This document shows, piece after piece, positions 1 through 7,958 of a stretch of DNA of 64,000 bases. The DNA lies in NCBI GenBank assembly GCA_005882275.1, contig VBAK01000114.1, forward strand, positions 1 through 64,000. The letters run 5' to 3'. A model generated the notes under the pieces. That model searched no databases and was not told where the DNA came from. It saw only the letters and a list, made by a program, of their open reading frames with translations. Each line of letters begins with the position of its first letter. Positions within the stretch are counted from its first letter, which is position 1. Position numbers and translations under genes: made by a program. Origin of the DNA: Candidatus Segetimicrobium genomatis. Its GTDB lineage: Bacteria; Sysuimicrobiota; Sysuimicrobiia; Sysuimicrobiales; Segetimicrobiaceae.

Positions 1-170
1 CTCCGGTTACGGTGGAGGTCGCCGGCGGCGACTACTCAGCGATGTTCCGCCGTTCGTGCCGCCCCTTCGGGGTCCATTCCTCTCCGGCGTCCTCCCGCGC
101 TCGCACCGTCCACGCGGGTCTCTCGTTAGGACCGGCCGGGAGTACTCGCCCCCGTCATCGGGTTTTGGTA
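1..170 (-). promoter_or_regulatory. T-box leader, probable tryptophan specificity, partial
   Basis: Read on the minus strand, this region has the order of stem I of a T-box leader: GAGTAC at 147-142, an apical GGTGCGAGC at 107-99, then GAATGGACCCC, and GAGTAG at 37-32 followed by a GCCGG-type closing segment. The flanks of the presumed specifier loop pair (CCGGC with GCCGG, GTCC with GGAC, GGGG with CCCC). The triplet in the usual specifier position after GAA is TGG (76-74), which would read tRNA-Trp. The antiterminator and the regulated gene lie beyond position 1. T-boxes sense uncharged tRNA, so the missing gene is probably trpS or a trp biosynthesis gene. Inferred by eye, without covariance-model support. 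Confidence 0.62.
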
Positions 171-176
171 CCCTAC

Positions 177-182
177 ACTATA
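177..182 (-). promoter_or_regulatory. Extended -10 promoter for the T-box transcript
   Basis: On the minus strand the hexamer TATAGT is preceded by TG with one base between, an extended -10 element. It sits about 7 bases upstream of where the T-box leader would start. A TTGACT lies too close (8 bases) to be its -35 element, so recognition probably depends on the extended -10. Confidence 0.45.
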
Positions 183-297
183 ACACAAGAAGTCAAGGGA
201 TTGTGCGCAGGAGAGCCGGAACAGGGGCGAAAAGACGGGGGATGGCGGATCACCACCCTCAGACGGTGCCCGCGCGGCGAGGTTGTGGGTGCGCAAA

Positions 298-1086
298 ATG
301 AGTCACGCACGCGAGTCATCGGATAAGAAGACCGAAGGCGCCCGCTCGTTTTTCGAGGCCATCAAAGCCGGGGATCTGGAGACCGTCCGGCGGATGATTC
401 AGAGCGATGGGGACCTCCTTTTCTACGGAAGTCCGGTCAGAGAGGCGATCGACTATTATCCGGAGATTGCCGACTTCCTGGCGCGCATTGAGTTGAAGCG
501 GCTCAAGGAAGGCAGCGTCTCAAGAGAGCATCTGTACGGCGCCATCCACGATCTTGGCGAAGCCGCGCATTCTAAGACAGGGTATCGTGGCTGTGAGAGT
601 CTTCGCGCAGAGGCCGAGCCCGTGGTCGCAGCGTTCCTGACTGACGACGATGACCAGATTCGATACATTGTCATGAGTGTGCTGGCTCTTCACTGGGACT
701 TGAAGCACTATGCCCAGGTATTCCAGTCGATGGCCCAGACCGATCCAGACGAATTCGTCAGGCAGATGGCCCTCTCCAATGTTGGGTTTTTGCTTCGCGG
801 CTCACGCGACCGCGATGCCGGCGGATTCCTTCTGGGGATCTTCCGCGATCCTGTTCAGCCGGGGGACATGCGGGAGGAGGCCTATGAAAGTCTCGTGGAG
901 ATCTGGCAGGGGTGGAACGCTGCTCAAGCCTTGAGGGTTCGGAAGCGCGGGCAGAAAGATGTTCGGCGCGCGGAAGCTGAGCGGGCAGGCGAGGGATTTG
1001 AAGCAGCCCAAAATGCGTGGGAGGCGTTGGTTGACTGGAAATTTGTGGCACAGGTCGAACAGGCAGTAACGGATGGGGATTTGTAA
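298..1086 (+). CDS. HEAT-repeat-like protein of unknown function
   Basis: A 262-residue soluble protein without signal peptide or membrane segments. It is mostly helical, and its middle (about residues 95-210) looks like HEAT/Armadillo-type helical pairs, for example the stretch around AEPVVAAFLTDDDDQIRYIV, so a protein-interaction scaffold is likely. The C-terminus is charged, with an Arg/Lys-Glu-rich helix. The ATG at 298 is preferred over an in-frame TTG at 283; the ribosome-binding site is weak in either case. It stands alone, divergent from the T-box transcript and convergent with the tauE end of the aro operon. No specific family was recognised. Confidence 0.7.
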   Translation: MSHARESSDKKTEGARSFFEAIKAGDLETVRRMIQSDGDLLFYGSPVREAIDYYPEIADFLARIELKRLKEGSVSREHLYGAIHDLGEAAHSKTGYRGCESLRAEAEPVVAAFLTDDDDQIRYIVMSVLALHWDLKHYAQVFQSMAQTDPDEFVRQMALSNVGFLLRGSRDRDAGGFLLGIFRDPVQPGDMREEAYESLVEIWQGWNAAQALRVRKRGQKDVRRAEAERAGEGFEAAQNAWEALVDWKFVAQVEQAVTDGDL

Positions 1087-1200: not shown

Positions 1201-1947
1201 CTACCGGGGCAGGCTTCTGGCCAGCAAATTGAGCCCGGCGAGGAAAACCACGGTCAGCACGATCCGCTCGAACATCCTGGCCGGCAGCCGGTCCTGCAGC
1301 GCGAGGCCAGCGAGCGTGCCGGCCGCCATCGGCAGGCAGGCGGCGAGCGCGCCGGTCAGGACGGGCCCCGGATAGAGGCCCAGCTTGAAGTAACTGGCGA
1401 CCTGCACGATGTTCACGACGAAAAACATCATGGTGATCCAGAAGACGAATTCGCGCTTGGCGAGACGGCGGAAGTGAAGGTAGCTGGCGAGGAGCGGCGA
1501 TGAAATCCCCGTCGACCCCCCCATCAAGCCCGCGAGCAGGCCGATGACGGGCCCGGCCCGATTGCCCGCGGCGGCGGGGACCTTGAGCGTCAACCGGCCC
1601 GCGGTGGCGAGCACGTAGAGCAGCGCCACCGCGCCGACCAAGCCCGACAGCAATCGGTGGCTCAGCGACCCGAACAGCAGCGCGCCTCCCACCGTGCCCG
1701 CGGCGAGCGAGACCAGCAGCGCCGCCATGCCGGCGCCCGCCCCGCCGGCGCCCCCACGGCGGACGACGAGGAAGTTGCTGAGGAGCGTGGGGATGGCCAC
1801 CACCGGGATCGCCACCCGCGGACCGATGATGGACGACAGCAGCGGAACCGCGACGAGCGGAAACCCGAACCCGATGGCGCCCTTGAGCATCGAGGCGCCG
1901 CACACCACCAGCGCCCCGGCGATCATCTGCCAGGGATCGTATGTCAT
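1201..1947 (-). CDS. TauE/SafE-family membrane permease
   Basis: A 248-residue membrane protein with about eight hydrophobic segments and the pattern near the N-terminus (GASMLKGAIGFGFPLVAVPL) that marks the TauE/SafE sulfite or organosulfonate exporter family. The ATG at 1947 overlaps the aroA stop by four bases (ATGA), so it is the last gene of the shikimate operon and translationally coupled to it. That position suggests a substrate connected with aromatic metabolism rather than sulfite, but this is inference. A long upstream extension of the reading frame inside aroA is not coding. Family assignment is good; the substrate is unknown. Confidence 0.82.
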   Translation of the reverse strand: MTYDPWQMIAGALVVCGASMLKGAIGFGFPLVAVPLLSSIIGPRVAIPVVAIPTLLSNFLVVRRGGAGGAGAGMAALLVSLAAGTVGGALLFGSLSHRLLSGLVGAVALLYVLATAGRLTLKVPAAAGNRAGPVIGLLAGLMGGSTGISSPLLASYLHFRRLAKREFVFWITMMFFVVNIVQVASYFKLGLYPGPVLTGALAACLPMAAGTLAGLALQDRLPARMFERIVLTVVFLAGLNLLARSLPR

Positions 1948-3224
1948 CCGCCGGTGGCCCGGCGGAGCGCCTCTGCAAACCCGGGAAACGACGTCTCGAT
2001 GTTGCCGGGGTCGTCGACGGTAACGGACCCCCCGGCGCACAGCCCGGCCACGGCCAGGCTCATGGCGATCCGGTGGTCTCCGCCGCTCGTGACGCGGCCA
2101 CCCCGCAGCGGCCGGCCGCCGGCGATCACCATGCCGTCCGGCCGCGGCTCGACCCGGGCGCCGAGGCGCCCCAGTTCCCTCGCCAGCGCCTCCACGCGAT
2201 CCGACTCCTTCACCCGCAGTTCGGCGGCATCGCGGATCACCGTCTCCCCCTCCGCGAGACACGCCGCGACCGCCAGCACCGGCAGCTCGTCGATCGCGCG
2301 CGGCACCAGGTCCCCGCCGATCACCGCGCCGTGCAGCGGCGTCGCCCGAACGGCGACGGTCCCCACGGGCTCTCCGCCCTCCTCCCGGAGATCCGCCACC
2401 TCCACGCGCGCGCCCATCATCGTCAAGATGTCCAGCAGCCCGGTGCGCGTAGGATTCAATCCGACATCGCGGATTTCGACCCGGGAGCCCGGCACGAGCG
2501 ACGCGGCGACAATAAAGTAGGCCGCAGAAGAAAAATCGCCCGGCACCCGCACCTGCGCGGCCCTGAGGGCCACCGGCCCGCGCAGCCGGGTGGTCAGCCC
2601 GTCGCGCTCCACCGCCGCGCCGAACACTCCCAGCATGCGTTCGGTGTGATCGCGGCTCTGGGCCGGCTCACGCACCGAGGTGGGTCCCGCGGCGAAGAGG
2701 CCGGCCAGGAGCACCGCCGACTTCACCTGCGCGCTCGCGACCGGGGTGGCGTAGTCGATGCCGCTCAGCCTGCCGCCGTCGATGGCGAGCGGGGCGAGGC
2801 GGCCTCCCTGACGCCCGGAGACCCGGGCGCCCATCCGCCGGAGCGGATCCGCGATCCGATCCATCGGCCGCCGGCGGATCGACGCGTCGCCGGTGAGCAC
2901 GCTGTGAAACGGGTGCCCGGCCAGGACGCCGGCGAGCAGGCGGATCGTCGTCCCGGAGTTGCCGACGTCCAGCACCTCCTCGGGCTCCTGCAGCGGCCTG
3001 CCGCGGACTTCGATCTCGTCGACCCGTTCGTCGATGGGGACGCCGGCCGCCCGCAGGCAGCGCAGGGTCGACCGGCAATCATCCGCCTGGAGGAACCCCG
3101 ACACCCGGGTGGTGCCGTGCGCGATGGCGCCGATGATGGCCCCGCGGTGGGAGATGGATTTATCCCCCGGCACGCGGAGCACGCCCTGGAGCGCGCGCCC
3201 CGGGGAGACGACCAGCGGGGTCAC
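1944..3224 (-). CDS. aroA: 3-phosphoshikimate 1-carboxyvinyltransferase (EPSP synthase)
   Basis: A 426-residue EPSP synthase that joins shikimate 3-phosphate and phosphoenolpyruvate in the sixth step of the shikimate pathway. The N-terminal VPGDKSISHR carries the PEP and shikimate-phosphate binding Lys, Ser and Arg. Further conserved blocks are LDVGNSGTTIRLL, the DASIRRRPM loop, VPGDFSSAAYF, and near the C-terminus RVKESDRV and GGDHRIAM. The GTG at 3224 overlaps the aroH stop by four bases, which fixes the start; frame upstream of it belongs to aroH. Length is normal. The class I versus class II distinction, which bears on glyphosate sensitivity, was not resolved by eye. Confidence 0.95.
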   Translation of the reverse strand: MTPLVVSPGRALQGVLRVPGDKSISHRGAIIGAIAHGTTRVSGFLQADDCRSTLRCLRAAGVPIDERVDEIEVRGRPLQEPEEVLDVGNSGTTIRLLAGVLAGHPFHSVLTGDASIRRRPMDRIADPLRRMGARVSGRQGGRLAPLAIDGGRLSGIDYATPVASAQVKSAVLLAGLFAAGPTSVREPAQSRDHTERMLGVFGAAVERDGLTTRLRGPVALRAAQVRVPGDFSSAAYFIVAASLVPGSRVEIRDVGLNPTRTGLLDILTMMGARVEVADLREEGGEPVGTVAVRATPLHGAVIGGDLVPRAIDELPVLAVAACLAEGETVIRDAAELRVKESDRVEALARELGRLGARVEPRPDGMVIAGGRPLRGGRVTSGGDHRIAMSLAVAGLCAGGSVTVDDPGNIETSFPGFAEALRRATGG

Positions 3225-3589
3225 GATCGCGTGAGGTCGGGGCGGAGGCGCTCGGCGTCGCGGAGGTAGACGTGCCGGACCTCCGCCGCGGTCTTGGTCG
3301 TGTTCACGAGCATGAGGATCCGCACGCACCGCGGCAGGGCGCCGGGCACCGGCACCTCCTGAGCGCACATCAGCGGGACGTGCGTCCAGCCCGGCAGGCG
3401 CCGGCAGGCCTCGGCGGGAAACACGGCGTTCAGGTCCGCGGTCACGGTAAAGAGCACGCCCGCCACATCGTCGGCGTCGATCTCGTTGATCCGGATCATC
3501 GCCCGCAGGAGCTCGAGGGTGGCATCGAGGATCGCCTGTTCCGTGTTCGCATCGACCGTGATCGCCCCCCGAACCCCGCGGAACCGCAT
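3221..3589 (-). CDS. aroH: Chorismate mutase, AroH type
   Basis: A 122-residue monofunctional chorismate mutase of the trimeric alpha/beta-barrel AroH class of Bacillus subtilis, converting chorismate to prephenate for Phe and Tyr synthesis. The start MRFRGVRGAITVDANT, the acidic middle around EIDADDVAGVLFTVTADLNA, and the sequence VPVPGALPRCVRILMLVNT with its active-site Arg match the class. The ATG at 3589 follows a strong AGGAGG. The stop overlaps the aroA GTG. Its presence shows the operon branches past chorismate. Confidence 0.93.
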   Translation of the reverse strand: MRFRGVRGAITVDANTEQAILDATLELLRAMIRINEIDADDVAGVLFTVTADLNAVFPAEACRRLPGWTHVPLMCAQEVPVPGALPRCVRILMLVNTTKTAAEVRHVYLRDAERLRPDLTRS

Positions 3590-3663
3590 GGTCTCCTCCT
3601 GCCGGCCCGCGGCGCCGGTTTGCGGTGTCAGGCGCGCGGGCTGGCTGTTGCTTCGACGGGCGC

Positions 3664-4233
3664 TCAGGGCCTCCTCTGCGGGGCGCGACGCCGGCGCGAC
3701 GCGCCGCCGCTGTGCGGCGCACGGCGCGACCCGTCCTCCGTCATCGCCGCAGCCGGGTCCTCCAGGCCCGCACCAGCCCGGGACCGGGGGGTGGGGGATG
3801 GACGGGCGGCGACGGCCAGCGCGGCGCGGAGCCCCAGCAGATAGCTGTCCGCGCCAAATCCGCTGATCTGCCCCCGGACGACCGGGGCGATCACGGAGAC
3901 CCGGAACGCCTCGCGGGCATGGATGTTCGAGAGGTGCACCTCGATCACCGGCACCGAGATCGCCGCGATCGCATCGCGCAGCGAGTAACTGTAGTGGGTC
4001 AGCGCTCCCGCGTTGAGCACGATCGCGTCATAGCGCCCCTGCGCGGCGTGCAGCCGGTCGATGATCGCGCCTTCGTGATTGCTCTGATACGTGTCGACGC
4101 CGGCCCCTTCGGCGCGCGCCAGCGCCGCGAGCCTGCGGTCGATCTCGGCGAGCGTCGTCGTGCCGTAGATGTCCGGCTGCCGCTGCCCGAGCAGGTTGAG
4201 GTTGGGGCCGTGGATCACCAGCACCTTAGCCAT
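3664..4233 (-). CDS. aroQ: Type II 3-dehydroquinate dehydratase with C-terminal tail
   Basis: A type II dehydroquinase that dehydrates 3-dehydroquinate to 3-dehydroshikimate. The first 145 residues are typical: [17 protein letters not shown] with the catalytic Tyr, [29 protein letters not shown], and [16 protein letters not shown] with the catalytic His. After [16 protein letters not shown] the protein continues about 40 residues into an Arg/Pro/Ala-rich tail; family members usually end near 145-150 residues. The tail may be disordered or may reflect loss of the ancestral stop. The ATG at 4233 overlaps the aroKB stop by 8 bases. Confidence 0.92.
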
Positions 4234-5920
4234 CGGTGAGGACCTCCTCGATGAGCGCCGGGGGAACGTCGTCCCGGATGACCGTCCGGCCCGGCGCCTG
4301 CGGGAGCACGAACCGCAGCCGGCCGGCGGCGGCCTTCTTGTCGTGCGCCATCGCCGCCCGCACCGCGCGCGGCGCCGGCGGCTTCCGGCGCGAGAGCGCC
4401 GCGCGCCTGACAGGCAGGCCCAGCGCTTCCAGCAGCCGCGTCTGGCGGTCGAGGAGCGCCGGCGCGCACACCCCCAGGCGCACCGCCAGGCGGGCCTCGA
4501 GCGTCATCCCCACCGAGACGGCCTCGCCGTGGGTGAGCCCGCGGTAGGACGCCGCGGCCTCGAACGCATGGCCGAAGGTGTGGCCGTAGTTGAGCACCAT
4601 CCGCGGGCCCGCCTCCCGCTCGTCGCGGGCCACAACGTCCGCCTTGTAGGCCGCGCACCGGGCCACGATCCACTCGAGCGCGGCGGGATCCCCGCGGCGG
4701 CACTCCGCCGCGTGGCTCTCCACGTAGTCGAACAGGTCGGGCGCGCCGATCACGCCGGTCTTGACCACCTCGGCCATCCCCGAGCGCAGCTGGCGCGGCG
4801 GCAGCGAGCGGAGCGTGTCGGGATCCGCGAGGACGACCGCGGGCTGGTGGACGGCCCCGATCAAATTCTTGGCGCGGAAGTTGATCCCCGTCTTGCCGCC
4901 GATGCTGGCATCCACCTGCGCGAGCAGGGTCGTGGGCGCCGAGACCCAGGCGATCCCCCGAAGAAAGGTGGCCGCGACGAACCCGCCGAGATCTCCCGCC
5001 ACTCCGCCGCCGAGGGCCAGCAGCGCGCAGCTCCGGTCGAACCCGGCATCCACCAGCCTGTCGAACACCCGCGCCGCCGCGCGCAGGCTCTTGCTGGACT
5101 CGGCCGGGGGCACGATGACGGGAACGACCTCGTACCCGGCCTTGCGGAGCCGCCTGGCGAGCGGGCGGCCGTACAGCGCGTCGATGCGGGGATGGGTGAG
5201 CAGCGCCAGCCGGCCGCGGAGGCCGCACCGGTCGAGGTACGCCGCAGCGTCCGCCAGGATCCCCTTGCCGATCCAGACGTCGTACCCACGCGGGCCGAGG
5301 TCCACCCGGACCGCCCGGGCCGCGCCGGCGGCCGGGCGGTCGCCGGCCGACCCGGCGGCGGGACGCGCGGGGTCCGAGATGGCGGCCCCGCGGAGCGCGT
5401 CCTCGCGCGCGAGGACGAACGCGACCACCCGATCGGCCACCGCATCGAGCGAGAGCGCCGAGGTCTCCACGACGACATCGGCCTCGCGGTAGAACTCGCT
5501 ACGCTCTTCGAGCAGGCGGTGCACGCGGCCCTCGGGATCGTCGCCCAGCAGCGGGCGATCCCCGGCGCGCCCCACCCGGGCGAGGATCGCCTGGGGATCG
5601 GCCCGGAGCGCGACGATCAGCCCGTGCTGGCGCAGGCGGTCCATGTTCTTGCGGCTGAGCACAACGCCGCCCCCCGTGGCAATGACGCTCCCGCCCGGCC
5701 CCGCCGCCCGAGCCACAGCCTGGGCCTCGAGCCTGCGGAACGCGGCCTCGCCGTCCTCGGCAAAGATGCGCGGGACCGACCGGCCGGCCTCCGCCTCGAT
5801 CAGCGCGTCGGTGTCCACGAATGGGCGGCCGAGGCGGGACGCAACGATGCGGCCCACCGAGGTCTTGCCCGTCGCCATGAAGCCGATGAGGACGATGTTG
5901 GGCGGCACGCGCGCGGTCAC
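4226..5920 (-). CDS. aroKB: Fused shikimate kinase / 3-dehydroquinate synthase
   Basis: A 564-residue bifunctional enzyme. Residues about 1-175 are shikimate kinase (Walker [16 protein letters not shown], and the shikimate-binding ATGGGVVL). A Pro/Ala-rich linker follows, then residues about 205-560 are 3-dehydroquinate synthase ([44 protein letters not shown] with the metal His residues). It therefore performs pathway steps 2 and 5 in one chain. Such fusions are known in a few thermophiles such as Thermotoga. The GTG at 5920 overlaps the aroC stop (GTGA). No frameshift is needed; the frame is continuous. Confidence 0.94.
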
Positions 5921-7056
5921 CCCGCCGGCGCGGGGGGACCGCGCCTGGCCCACCGCTGGTGCGCGTCGTAGGCGACGCGCATCTGGTCGAGGCTGTCCCC
6001 CCCGAATTTCTCGATCATCGCATCCGCCAGGACAAACGCGACCATGGCTTCGCCGATCACCCCGGCCGAAGGGACGGCGGTGACGTCGCTGCGAACCACC
6101 GCCGCTTCCACGCGCTCTTTGGTGACGATGTCCACGGACGCGAGCGGGCTGCGCAGGGTGCTGAGCGGCTTCATCGCCACCCGGGCGACCAGCGGATCGC
6201 CGGTCGACATGCCGCCTTCGGTGCCCCCGGCCCGGTTCGTCGCCCGGTGGAAACCCCGCTCCGGATCGTAGAAGATCTCGTCGTGCGCCGAGGATCCCGG
6301 CAGCCGCGCCTCCTGAAACCCCTCGCCGATCTCCACGCCCTTGATGGCGTTGATGGACATCAGCGCCTGCGCGAGCCGGCCGTCCAGCCGCCGATCCCAG
6401 TGCACATAGGTGCCGAGCCCGACGGGGAGCCCGAGCGCGACGACCTCGAAGACGCCGCCCAGCGTATCGCCCGCCTCCCGCGCTTTATCGATGGCGGCGA
6501 TCATCCGGGTCTGGGCCTCGGGGTCGACGCACCGCAGCGGGGACGCTTCGGCGAGCGCGGGGATGTCCTCATACCGGTCCGGGCGGCGGCCGATCGCGAT
6601 CCCGCCGAGCTCCACCACGTGACTCGCCAGGGTGATCCCGAACTGGGCGAGGAGGGCCCGGCAGATCGCGCCCGCCGCAACGCGGGCGACCGTTTCGCGG
6701 GCGCTCGACCGCTCGAGCACCCGGCGCACGTCGTCGAAGTGGTACTTGAGGGCGCCGGCGAGATCGGCGTGTCCGGGCCGGGGCCGGGTGAGCGGAGGCT
6801 CCGCCGTGCGCCAGTCCTTGTTGCCGATATGCAGGCCGACCGGCGCCCCGATCGTCGTGCCGCTCATCACGCCCGCATAGATCTCCGCGCGGTCCTGCTC
6901 GATCTGCATCCGGCCGCCGCGGCCGTAGCCGCGCTGCCGGCGGGCGAGCTGGACGGTGATGTCCTCCTCGCTCAGAGGCAGGCCCGCCGGGATGCCTTCC
7001 AGCACGACCAGCAGGCCGCGCCCGTGGGACTCGCCCGAGGTCAGAAACCGCAGCAC
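5917..7056 (-). CDS. aroC: Chorismate synthase
   Basis: A 379-residue FMN-dependent enzyme that converts EPSP to chorismate, the last step of the pathway. The N-terminal LTSGESHGRGL, the RQRGYGRGGRM block, the internal RSSARETVARVAAGA and the late GGISTG-equivalent GGMSTGDPL followed by KPLSTL are family signatures. It starts with ATG 12 bases downstream of aroE and its stop overlaps the aroKB GTG. Length and motifs are complete. Confidence 0.96.
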   Translation of the reverse strand: MLRFLTSGESHGRGLLVVLEGIPAGLPLSEEDITVQLARRQRGYGRGGRMQIEQDRAEIYAGVMSGTTIGAPVGLHIGNKDWRTAEPPLTRPRPGHADLAGALKYHFDDVRRVLERSSARETVARVAAGAICRALLAQFGITLASHVVELGGIAIGRRPDRYEDIPALAEASPLRCVDPEAQTRMIAAIDKAREAGDTLGGVFEVVALGLPVGLGTYVHWDRRLDGRLAQALMSINAIKGVEIGEGFQEARLPGSSAHDEIFYDPERGFHRATNRAGGTEGGMSTGDPLVARVAMKPLSTLRSPLASVDIVTKERVEAAVVRSDVTAVPSAGVIGEAMVAFVLADAMIEKFGGDSLDQMRVAYDAHQRWARRGPPAPAG

Positions 7057-7067
7057 CGGCGATGCTC

Positions 7068-7958
7068 CTACGATTTCGAGGCCGCTTCCCGCGGCAGGCC
7101 CAACGCGTCGCGCATCACCTGCAGGGGGGCCTGGCGGCCGGTCCAGATCTCAAAGGCGCGTGCGCCCTGGTAGAGGAGCATCGGGAGGCCTCCCAGCGTG
7201 CGGCATCCCGCCGCGCGGGCCTCGCGCAGCAGGACCGTTTCTCGAGGATCGTAGACCATGTCCATCACGAACAGCCCGGGATGCAGCAGGGTCCCGGGGA
7301 CCGCCGACAGCGCGCGCTGCCCGCCGGCGCCGGCCGTCGTCGCCTGCACCAGCAGGGTCGCTTCGCGCAGCGTCACGGCGACCCCGGCGCCGTCGAGCGG
7401 CGCCGCGTCGACCGCGCAGGTGACGGTCCGACGGACGGCATCCGCCAGCGCGGCGGCGCGATCCCAGTTGCGGTTGATGATCGTGACGGCGCCCGCCCCC
7501 GCGCCCGCGAGGGCGAACGCGGCGGCCCGGGCCGCGCCGCCCGCGCCCACGATGACGGCCCGCTGCCCTTCCGGCGTCACGCCGCCGTCGAGCCGGAGGG
7601 CATCGAGCAACCCGGCGGCGTCGGTATTGTAGCCGATCAGGCGGTCACCGGACACCTGCACGGTGTTCACCGCGCCGATCACGCGGGCGTCGTCCGTGGT
7701 CTCGTCGAGATACGCGAGGGCGGCCTCTTTGTGGGGGACGGTGATATTGGCGCCGGCGGCGCCGAGCGCGGCCAACCCCCGCAGCGCCGCTTCCAGGCGA
7801 TCCCGGGGCACCCGGAACCCCACGTAGCACCAGTTGAGCCCCAGGGCCGCGAACGCTGCGTTGTGGAGCCGGGGAGAGAGGCTTCCCCGAACCGCATCTC
7901 CGATGACCCCGACGACCGTTGTCGCCCCGTCGATCTCCGTATGTTCCCCCCGATCCAT
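7068..7958 (-). CDS. aroE: Shikimate dehydrogenase
   Basis: A 296-residue NADP-dependent dehydrogenase that reduces 3-dehydroshikimate to shikimate. Visible motifs are the substrate-binding GDAVRGSLSPRLHNAAF, the catalytic Lys in NITVPHKE, GAVNTV, GYNTDAAG, and the nucleotide fold VGAGGAARAAAFAL followed by NRNW. It is the first gene of the aro operon; the ATG at 7958 is the only canonical start upstream of the fold and has a poor ribosome-binding site. The short upstream region to 8040 contains a GC-rich palindrome (CAGGCCTGG) but no recognised leader. Confidence 0.94.
   Translation of the reverse strand: MDRGEHTEIDGATTVVGVIGDAVRGSLSPRLHNAAFAALGLNWCYVGFRVPRDRLEAALRGLAALGAAGANITVPHKEAALAYLDETTDDARVIGAVNTVQVSGDRLIGYNTDAAGLLDALRLDGGVTPEGQRAVIVGAGGAARAAAFALAGAGAGAVTIINRNWDRAAALADAVRRTVTCAVDAAPLDGAGVAVTLREATLLVQATTAGAGGQRALSAVPGTLLHPGLFVMDMVYDPRETVLLREARAAGCRTLGGLPMLLYQGARAFEIWTGRQAPLQVMRDALGLPREAASKS

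Follow-up and report, generated by a model that had tools for sequence, protein, structure and literature searches.

The left edge of the window (the whole stretch of 64,000 nucleotides analysed here, which starts at base 1 of the 89,218-base contig C169 in a genome of 200 contigs) carries on its minus strand, from 185 to 1, a promoter and the 5' half of a T-box whose specifier is TGG (Trp), and the contig end cuts through this T-box. Together with its continuation beyond the window edge, which is supplied by contig C191 (6,238 bases, numbered below as L003), the leader is very probably a class I (transcriptional) T-box riboswitch reading tRNA-Trp. The genes 3' of it follow the order aroF-tyrA-trpE-trpG-trpD-trpC-trpS-trpF-trpB-trpA. 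It is a real and conserved T-box of ordinary mechanism, located in a genome that groups with Candidatus Segetimicrobium (Sysuimicrobiota), a little-studied and uncultured phylum in which T-boxes are common.

As listed in Table 1, all stem I landmarks which the first-pass annotation had proposed for the minus strand of this edge were found in the right order, comprising the AGTA/GAA specifier loop, the AGAGA bulge and the GGTG apical loop that characterize members of the Rfam family RF00230. The extended -10 promoter proposed ahead of them could likewise be read in the sequence, and the same type of element precedes the T-boxes of several relatives and, within the window's genome, also that of proC. 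A strict scan for a -35/-10 promoter at the aroF T-box gave none, and the claim is limited to the extended -10. The covariance search suggested earlier was positive: cmscan placed RF00230 on window positions 167-1(-) with 28.4 bits (E=2e-4), the 3' end of the match being cut by the window edge, and over the complete leader (L003 19-320) the score rose to 50.3 bits (E=5.3e-10; E=6.6e-10 in the whole-genome search). Since even the full leader scores below the RF00230 gathering cut-off of 93 bits, this T-box is missed by default annotation; a default Rfam scan of the window returned nothing at the gathering score, and an E-value threshold was needed for RF00230 to appear. The low score probably originates from the high G+C content and the long insertions of the leader. 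Further weak Rfam matches on the window and L003 (asR3, HgcC, TCV_Pr and others) were discarded as chance.

Table 1 Coordinates of the aroF T-box leader and its surroundings, and the other T-boxes of the genome (window positions unless another sequence is named)
Feature	Position	Strand	Specifier	Basis or remark
Extended -10 promoter element TGTTATAGT of the aroF-trp operon	177..185	-		read in sequence
T-box leader, 5' part (stem I and stem II region)	1..167	-		RF00230 match 167-1(-)
GATGA motif	159-155	-		sequence
Stem I helices (base, middle, apical)	69..153	-		alignment of 11 family members and pair counts
AGTA motif, 5' strand of specifier loop	143..146	-		sequence; aligns with AGUA of Rfam consensus
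GAGAGA bulge motif	119..124	-		aligns with AGAGA of Rfam consensus
GGTGCGA apical loop motif	101..107	-		aligns with GGUGaaA of Rfam consensus
GAA-TGG-A	79-73	-		sequence
Specifier codon (Trp)	74..76	-	TGG	aligned in Rfam match; invariant in 11 family members
Antiterminator/terminator half	L003 186-345 (contig C191), past the window's contig end			full RF00230 match
Antiterminator core GGGUGGUACCGCG with UGGN bulge	L003 279-291; UGGU at 282-285			
Shikimate cluster aroE-aroC-aroKB-aroQ-chorismate mutase-aroA	1944..7958	-		Pfam; context, not shown to be under T-box control
valS T-box			GTT	by position, by eye
thrS T-box			ACC	by position, by eye
proC T-box			CCA	by position, by eye
T-box before acetolactate synthase-ilvC-leuA cluster			CTC	by position, by eye
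pheS T-box			TTC	by eye; weak match (E=0.017), agrees with gene
metG T-box	C169 88455-88744	-	ATG	by eye; weak match (E=0.036), agrees with gene

When the genome was searched with window positions 1-600, C191 was the sole other match. Because its first 185 bases match the window end exactly (185/185 identical to 185-1 on the minus strand), C191 continues from the window edge. The join is nevertheless an overlap of contig ends, which could mean that the window edge and C191 are two separate T-box copies united only by sequence similarity; we regard this as highly improbable in view of the perfect overlap between the only two matching places of the genome. On L043, which belongs to a close relative whose aroF is 97% identical, aroA, the permease region, the plus-strand ORF, the T-box and aroF lie unbroken on one piece, and the C169/C191 join is therefore more than an overlap. 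A second join in this assembly is built in the same way, C191 overlapping contig C12 at its right end by 181 identical bases, and in relatives (e.g. G029, G032 and G033) aroF-tyrA-trpE-G-D-C-S-F-B are found on single contigs. Judged from these identical overlaps and the relatives, the operon would run continuously across the three contigs. On C191 the core GGGTGGTACCGCG is followed by a terminator hairpin and a T-run, in agreement with the earlier demand for an antiterminator: the UGGN-bearing core of Table 1 is present, with an intrinsic terminator behind it. The GC-rich hairpin comprises at least 10 pairs (L003 306-330) and is followed by TTTTATGTTTTT, a terminator scan gave a match at L003 303-333, and antiterminator and terminator share the strand CCCGUCCC, like those of other transcriptional T-boxes. 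The presence of an intrinsic terminator that excludes the antiterminator assigns the leader to class I. In many high-G+C Actinobacteria T-boxes act on translation instead (translational T-boxes are known from Actinobacteria; PMC7778990), and the host genome is also high in G+C. A translational mode for the aroF leader is, however, very unlikely, since the strong hairpin with TTTTATGTTTTT is located ~30 bases before the aroF start, shares its strand with the antiterminator and leaves the ribosome site GAGGAGG outside the terminator hairpin.

Counting from the stem I base helix gives TGG as the specifier of the aroF leader, as had been anticipated; the codon is aligned in the RF00230 match, it is invariant in 11/11 aligned family members, and it agrees with the downstream trp genes and trpS. 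At aroF the GAA directly abuts TGG, but one more base separates GAA from the specifier in the T-boxes of valS, thrS and proC in this genome, so that the register could be off by one and a different tRNA (GGA for Gly or ATG for Met) be read. This we consider hardly credible: the count from the base helix (specifier, one base, C-rich strand) that yields TGG at aroF yields GTT, ACC, CCA and ATG for valS, thrS, proC and metG, all agreeing with their genes, and the genes downstream of the aroF leader are trp genes. The same register also gives TTC in three other genomes (G002, G035 and G036), together with a UGGU that fits tRNA-Phe. The Trp reading of the specifier is matched by a single tRNA-Trp among 30 scanned tRNA loci (of 46 matches), whose own sequence also finds one match; it has the anticodon CCA and the 3' end GCCA. 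The UGGN bulge of the aroF leader is thus able to pair with the NCCA end of its tRNA, the UGGU facing G73 of tRNA-Trp in a G-U wobble instead of a Watson-Crick pair. The idea that this pairing is an oddity was dropped, for PMC7778990 reports U at the UGGN position in 46% of the Trp T-boxes in TBDB, their tRNAs carrying G, hence the same wobble without notable difference, and G73 occurs in all 28 tRNA-Trp genes read across the phylum (30 loci examined, two of which held other tRNAs). tRNA-Phe has A73 in the three cases read (the window's genome, G002 and G035).

The structure was evaluated on an alignment of the 11 aroF T-boxes of the window's family. In stem I and the antiterminator 98.1% of the 308 cells form standard pairs, a share that is favoured by construction, as the stem I pairs had been defined by the consensus that RNAalifold computed on this very alignment. 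Eight of the 28 pairs, all in stem I, have changed on both sides (compensatory changes), and the covariation score amounts to 0.266 versus a shuffled mean of 0.110, with 0/500 shuffles reaching it. Sliding the partners by 1-3 columns lowers the paired cells to 31-57%. The antiterminator pairs are invariant in the 11-member set and neutral as to structure.

C191 carries aroF, tyrA, trpE, trpG and trpD and breaks off within trpC; C12 completes trpC and continues with trpS, trpF, trpB, trpA and a gene for citrate synthase. The first gene, aroF, encodes a DAHP synthase with a ferredoxin-like N-terminal domain. No further DAHP synthase was found in the genome, where PF00793 matches once and PF01474 not at all (genome ~93% complete); trpS also has one match at this completeness. 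The expectation that the T-box ties to a tryptophan-related gene beyond the window appears to hold, the genes from aroF to trpA making up a tryptophan operon together with its DAHP synthase and its tRNA ligase. The neighbouring shikimate operon, which had been called complete and adjacent, stood up in part. The cluster exists and includes a fused aroK-aroB gene (aroKB); it lacks a DAHP synthase, that enzyme being the first gene behind the T-box, and it is separated from the T-box by ~1.8 kb containing a TauE/SafE permease and, on the plus strand, an unrelated ORF. The ORF beside the T-box promoter (window 301-1086(+), 261 aa) gave only a sub-threshold HEAT-repeat match and has a diverged copy in L043.

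tRNA binding and switching by the aroF leader would, by analogy with the known T-box mechanism, proceed as follows. With charged tRNA-Trp the leader would fold the GC-rich terminator, and transcription would end before aroF. Uncharged tRNA-Trp, once it accumulates, would base-pair at two places, through its CCA anticodon with the UGG specifier of stem I and through its free GCCA end with the UGGU bulge, the wobble lying at the discriminator. In the tRNA-bound leader the antiterminator would form instead, allowing transcription of aroF through trpA. Switching on would raise precursor supply (via the sole DAHP synthase found), tryptophan synthesis and tRNA-Trp charging together. For the organism this predicts joint control of DAHP synthase, tryptophan synthesis and TrpRS by tryptophan shortage.

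RF00230 was found in all 43 Sysuimicrobiota genomes searched (E<=0.001), exceeding the gathering score in 15 of them and in none of the matches of the other 28; T-boxes of this phylum often score under the standard cut-off. Relatives of aroF were present in 38/43 genomes (40 matches in total), of which 39 were examined, G040 being left out as its match begins at the contig start, and G020 had no upstream DNA. A T-box core was located within 520 bases upstream of aroF in 35 of 38 matches (34/36 by genome), and within this distance none was seen at the second aroF of G033, at G011 and at G012. Behind the core a hairpin with T-rich tail followed in 35/35 aroF T-boxes, compared with 7/175 shuffled and 3/175 random segments under a fixed energy limit. 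The specifiers, whose final readings were made by eye on the sequences, were TGG in 31 and TTC in three of these T-boxes (G002, G035 and G036, which represent two families), and one (G038) is cut before the specifier. The variable UGGN base is C in 18 of the TGG boxes and U in 13 (the 11 of the window's family, G004 and G037); in the TTC boxes it is U in 3/3.

In G002 a Phe T-box precedes aroF-tyrA and a Trp T-box (UGGC) precedes trpE and the following genes; in G041 both of these positions are occupied by Trp T-boxes. In G035 a Phe T-box and aroF precede a Leu T-box with an ilvB-type gene, and tyrA-trpE-trpG-trpD lie at a separate locus with a Trp T-box. A second T-box with CTC (Leu) was seen in G035 (L222 ~2691), G036 (L224 ~2752) and G038 (L220 ~1667, all positions with aroF forward), between an aroF copy and an acetolactate synthase-like gene followed by ilvC-like genes (by eye). 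In a tree of the T-boxes, several branches of which are weakly supported, the two G002 copies group with the T-boxes of family f2 and the two G041 copies with each other, a placement that would fit local duplication. Taking these arrangements together, we lean slightly towards a history in which an ancestral single tRNA-Trp switch stood before aroF-tyrA-trpEGDC-trpS-trpFB(A), at least two families recoded the aroF T-box from TGG to TTC along with a UGGN base fitting tRNA-Phe, and a separate Trp T-box was retained, or newly acquired, by the trp genes. In family f5 three trp contigs end within aroF, so that some of its genomes seem to possess another copy of the gene; the history of this family is for this reason not plain recoding in place, and the rewiring is offered as a bold reading and not as a verdict. 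If true, tRNA-Trp charging would have gated entry to all aromatic synthesis in the ancestral state, and the phylum would offer a naturally occurring series in which one orthologous T-box changes its specificity. Because T-box duplication and specificity change have already been described in Firmicutes (PMC3766115), such rewiring of aroF would be an extension rather than a surprise.

G011 seems to have lost its aroF T-box. On L217 (~1405 with aroF in forward orientation) only ~60 bases separate a promoter-like TATACT element from aroF, and the operon of this genome reads aroF-tyrA-trpS without trpE. For G008 no trpE match was obtained at E<=1e-40.

At E<=1 the window's genome gave seven RF00230 matches, none above the gathering score; the T-boxes other than that of aroF are included in Table 1. 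The CTC read before the acetolactate synthase cluster could be TCT by one register, Leu being favoured by the genes. On contig C169 the only other T-box match is the far-off one before metG, which sits at the opposite end of the window's own contig, outside the window.

With the Trp class I T-boxes of trp operons (RF00230; Bacillota) the aroF leader shares the stem I motifs, the specifier, the UGGN bulge, the mutually exclusive antiterminator and terminator and the trp genes downstream. It differs from them in its Sysuimicrobiota host, in an operon that opens with DAHP synthase and tyrA and holds trpS, and in its sub-cut-off score. Trp T-boxes before trp operons are described, as are T-boxes in Chloroflexi, Actinobacteria, Deinococcus-Thermus and Geobacter (PMC2494555, PMC3766115); further reports concern Trp T-boxes at trpE and trpB-like genes of Dehalococcoides (PMC2494555) and tandem T-boxes before trp genes in Bacillota (PMC12452182). 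A term search of the main text of PMC11604079, which names Sysuimicrobiota, gave neither T-box nor riboswitch, and among the ten best literature matches listed for each search no report joined the phylum names with either term; an earlier report may exist. An uncultured phylum of soil and hot springs joins the short list of T-box users, and default annotation misses its T-boxes.

Among 80 aroF loci compared (a sample, not a census, as many upstream parts were short or cut and the pattern was strict) the exact core pattern occurred in 10, three from Sysuimicrobiota (L043-L045) and seven from other phyla. In these seven loci, mostly of Bacillota, the T-box core likewise lies a short distance ahead of a gene for a DAHP synthase belonging to the same family; read by eye, they specify Phe (L069, L082, L087 and L097) or Tyr (L079, L085 and L114), and none Trp. 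Within Sysuimicrobiota the Trp- and Phe-reading aroF T-boxes provide paired material on how many changes switch tRNA specificity.

The T-boxes of family f2 (L214 122-419, L226 899-569(-) and L221) carry an extra stem I insert of ~45-60 nt before AGAGA. It has a common GCCGCCAGGGCG-like hairpin, and the single sequences fold as two hairpins. An unknown riboswitch module was considered for this insert and set aside: the Rfam matches there are to the T-box only, and the insert amounts to two hairpins.
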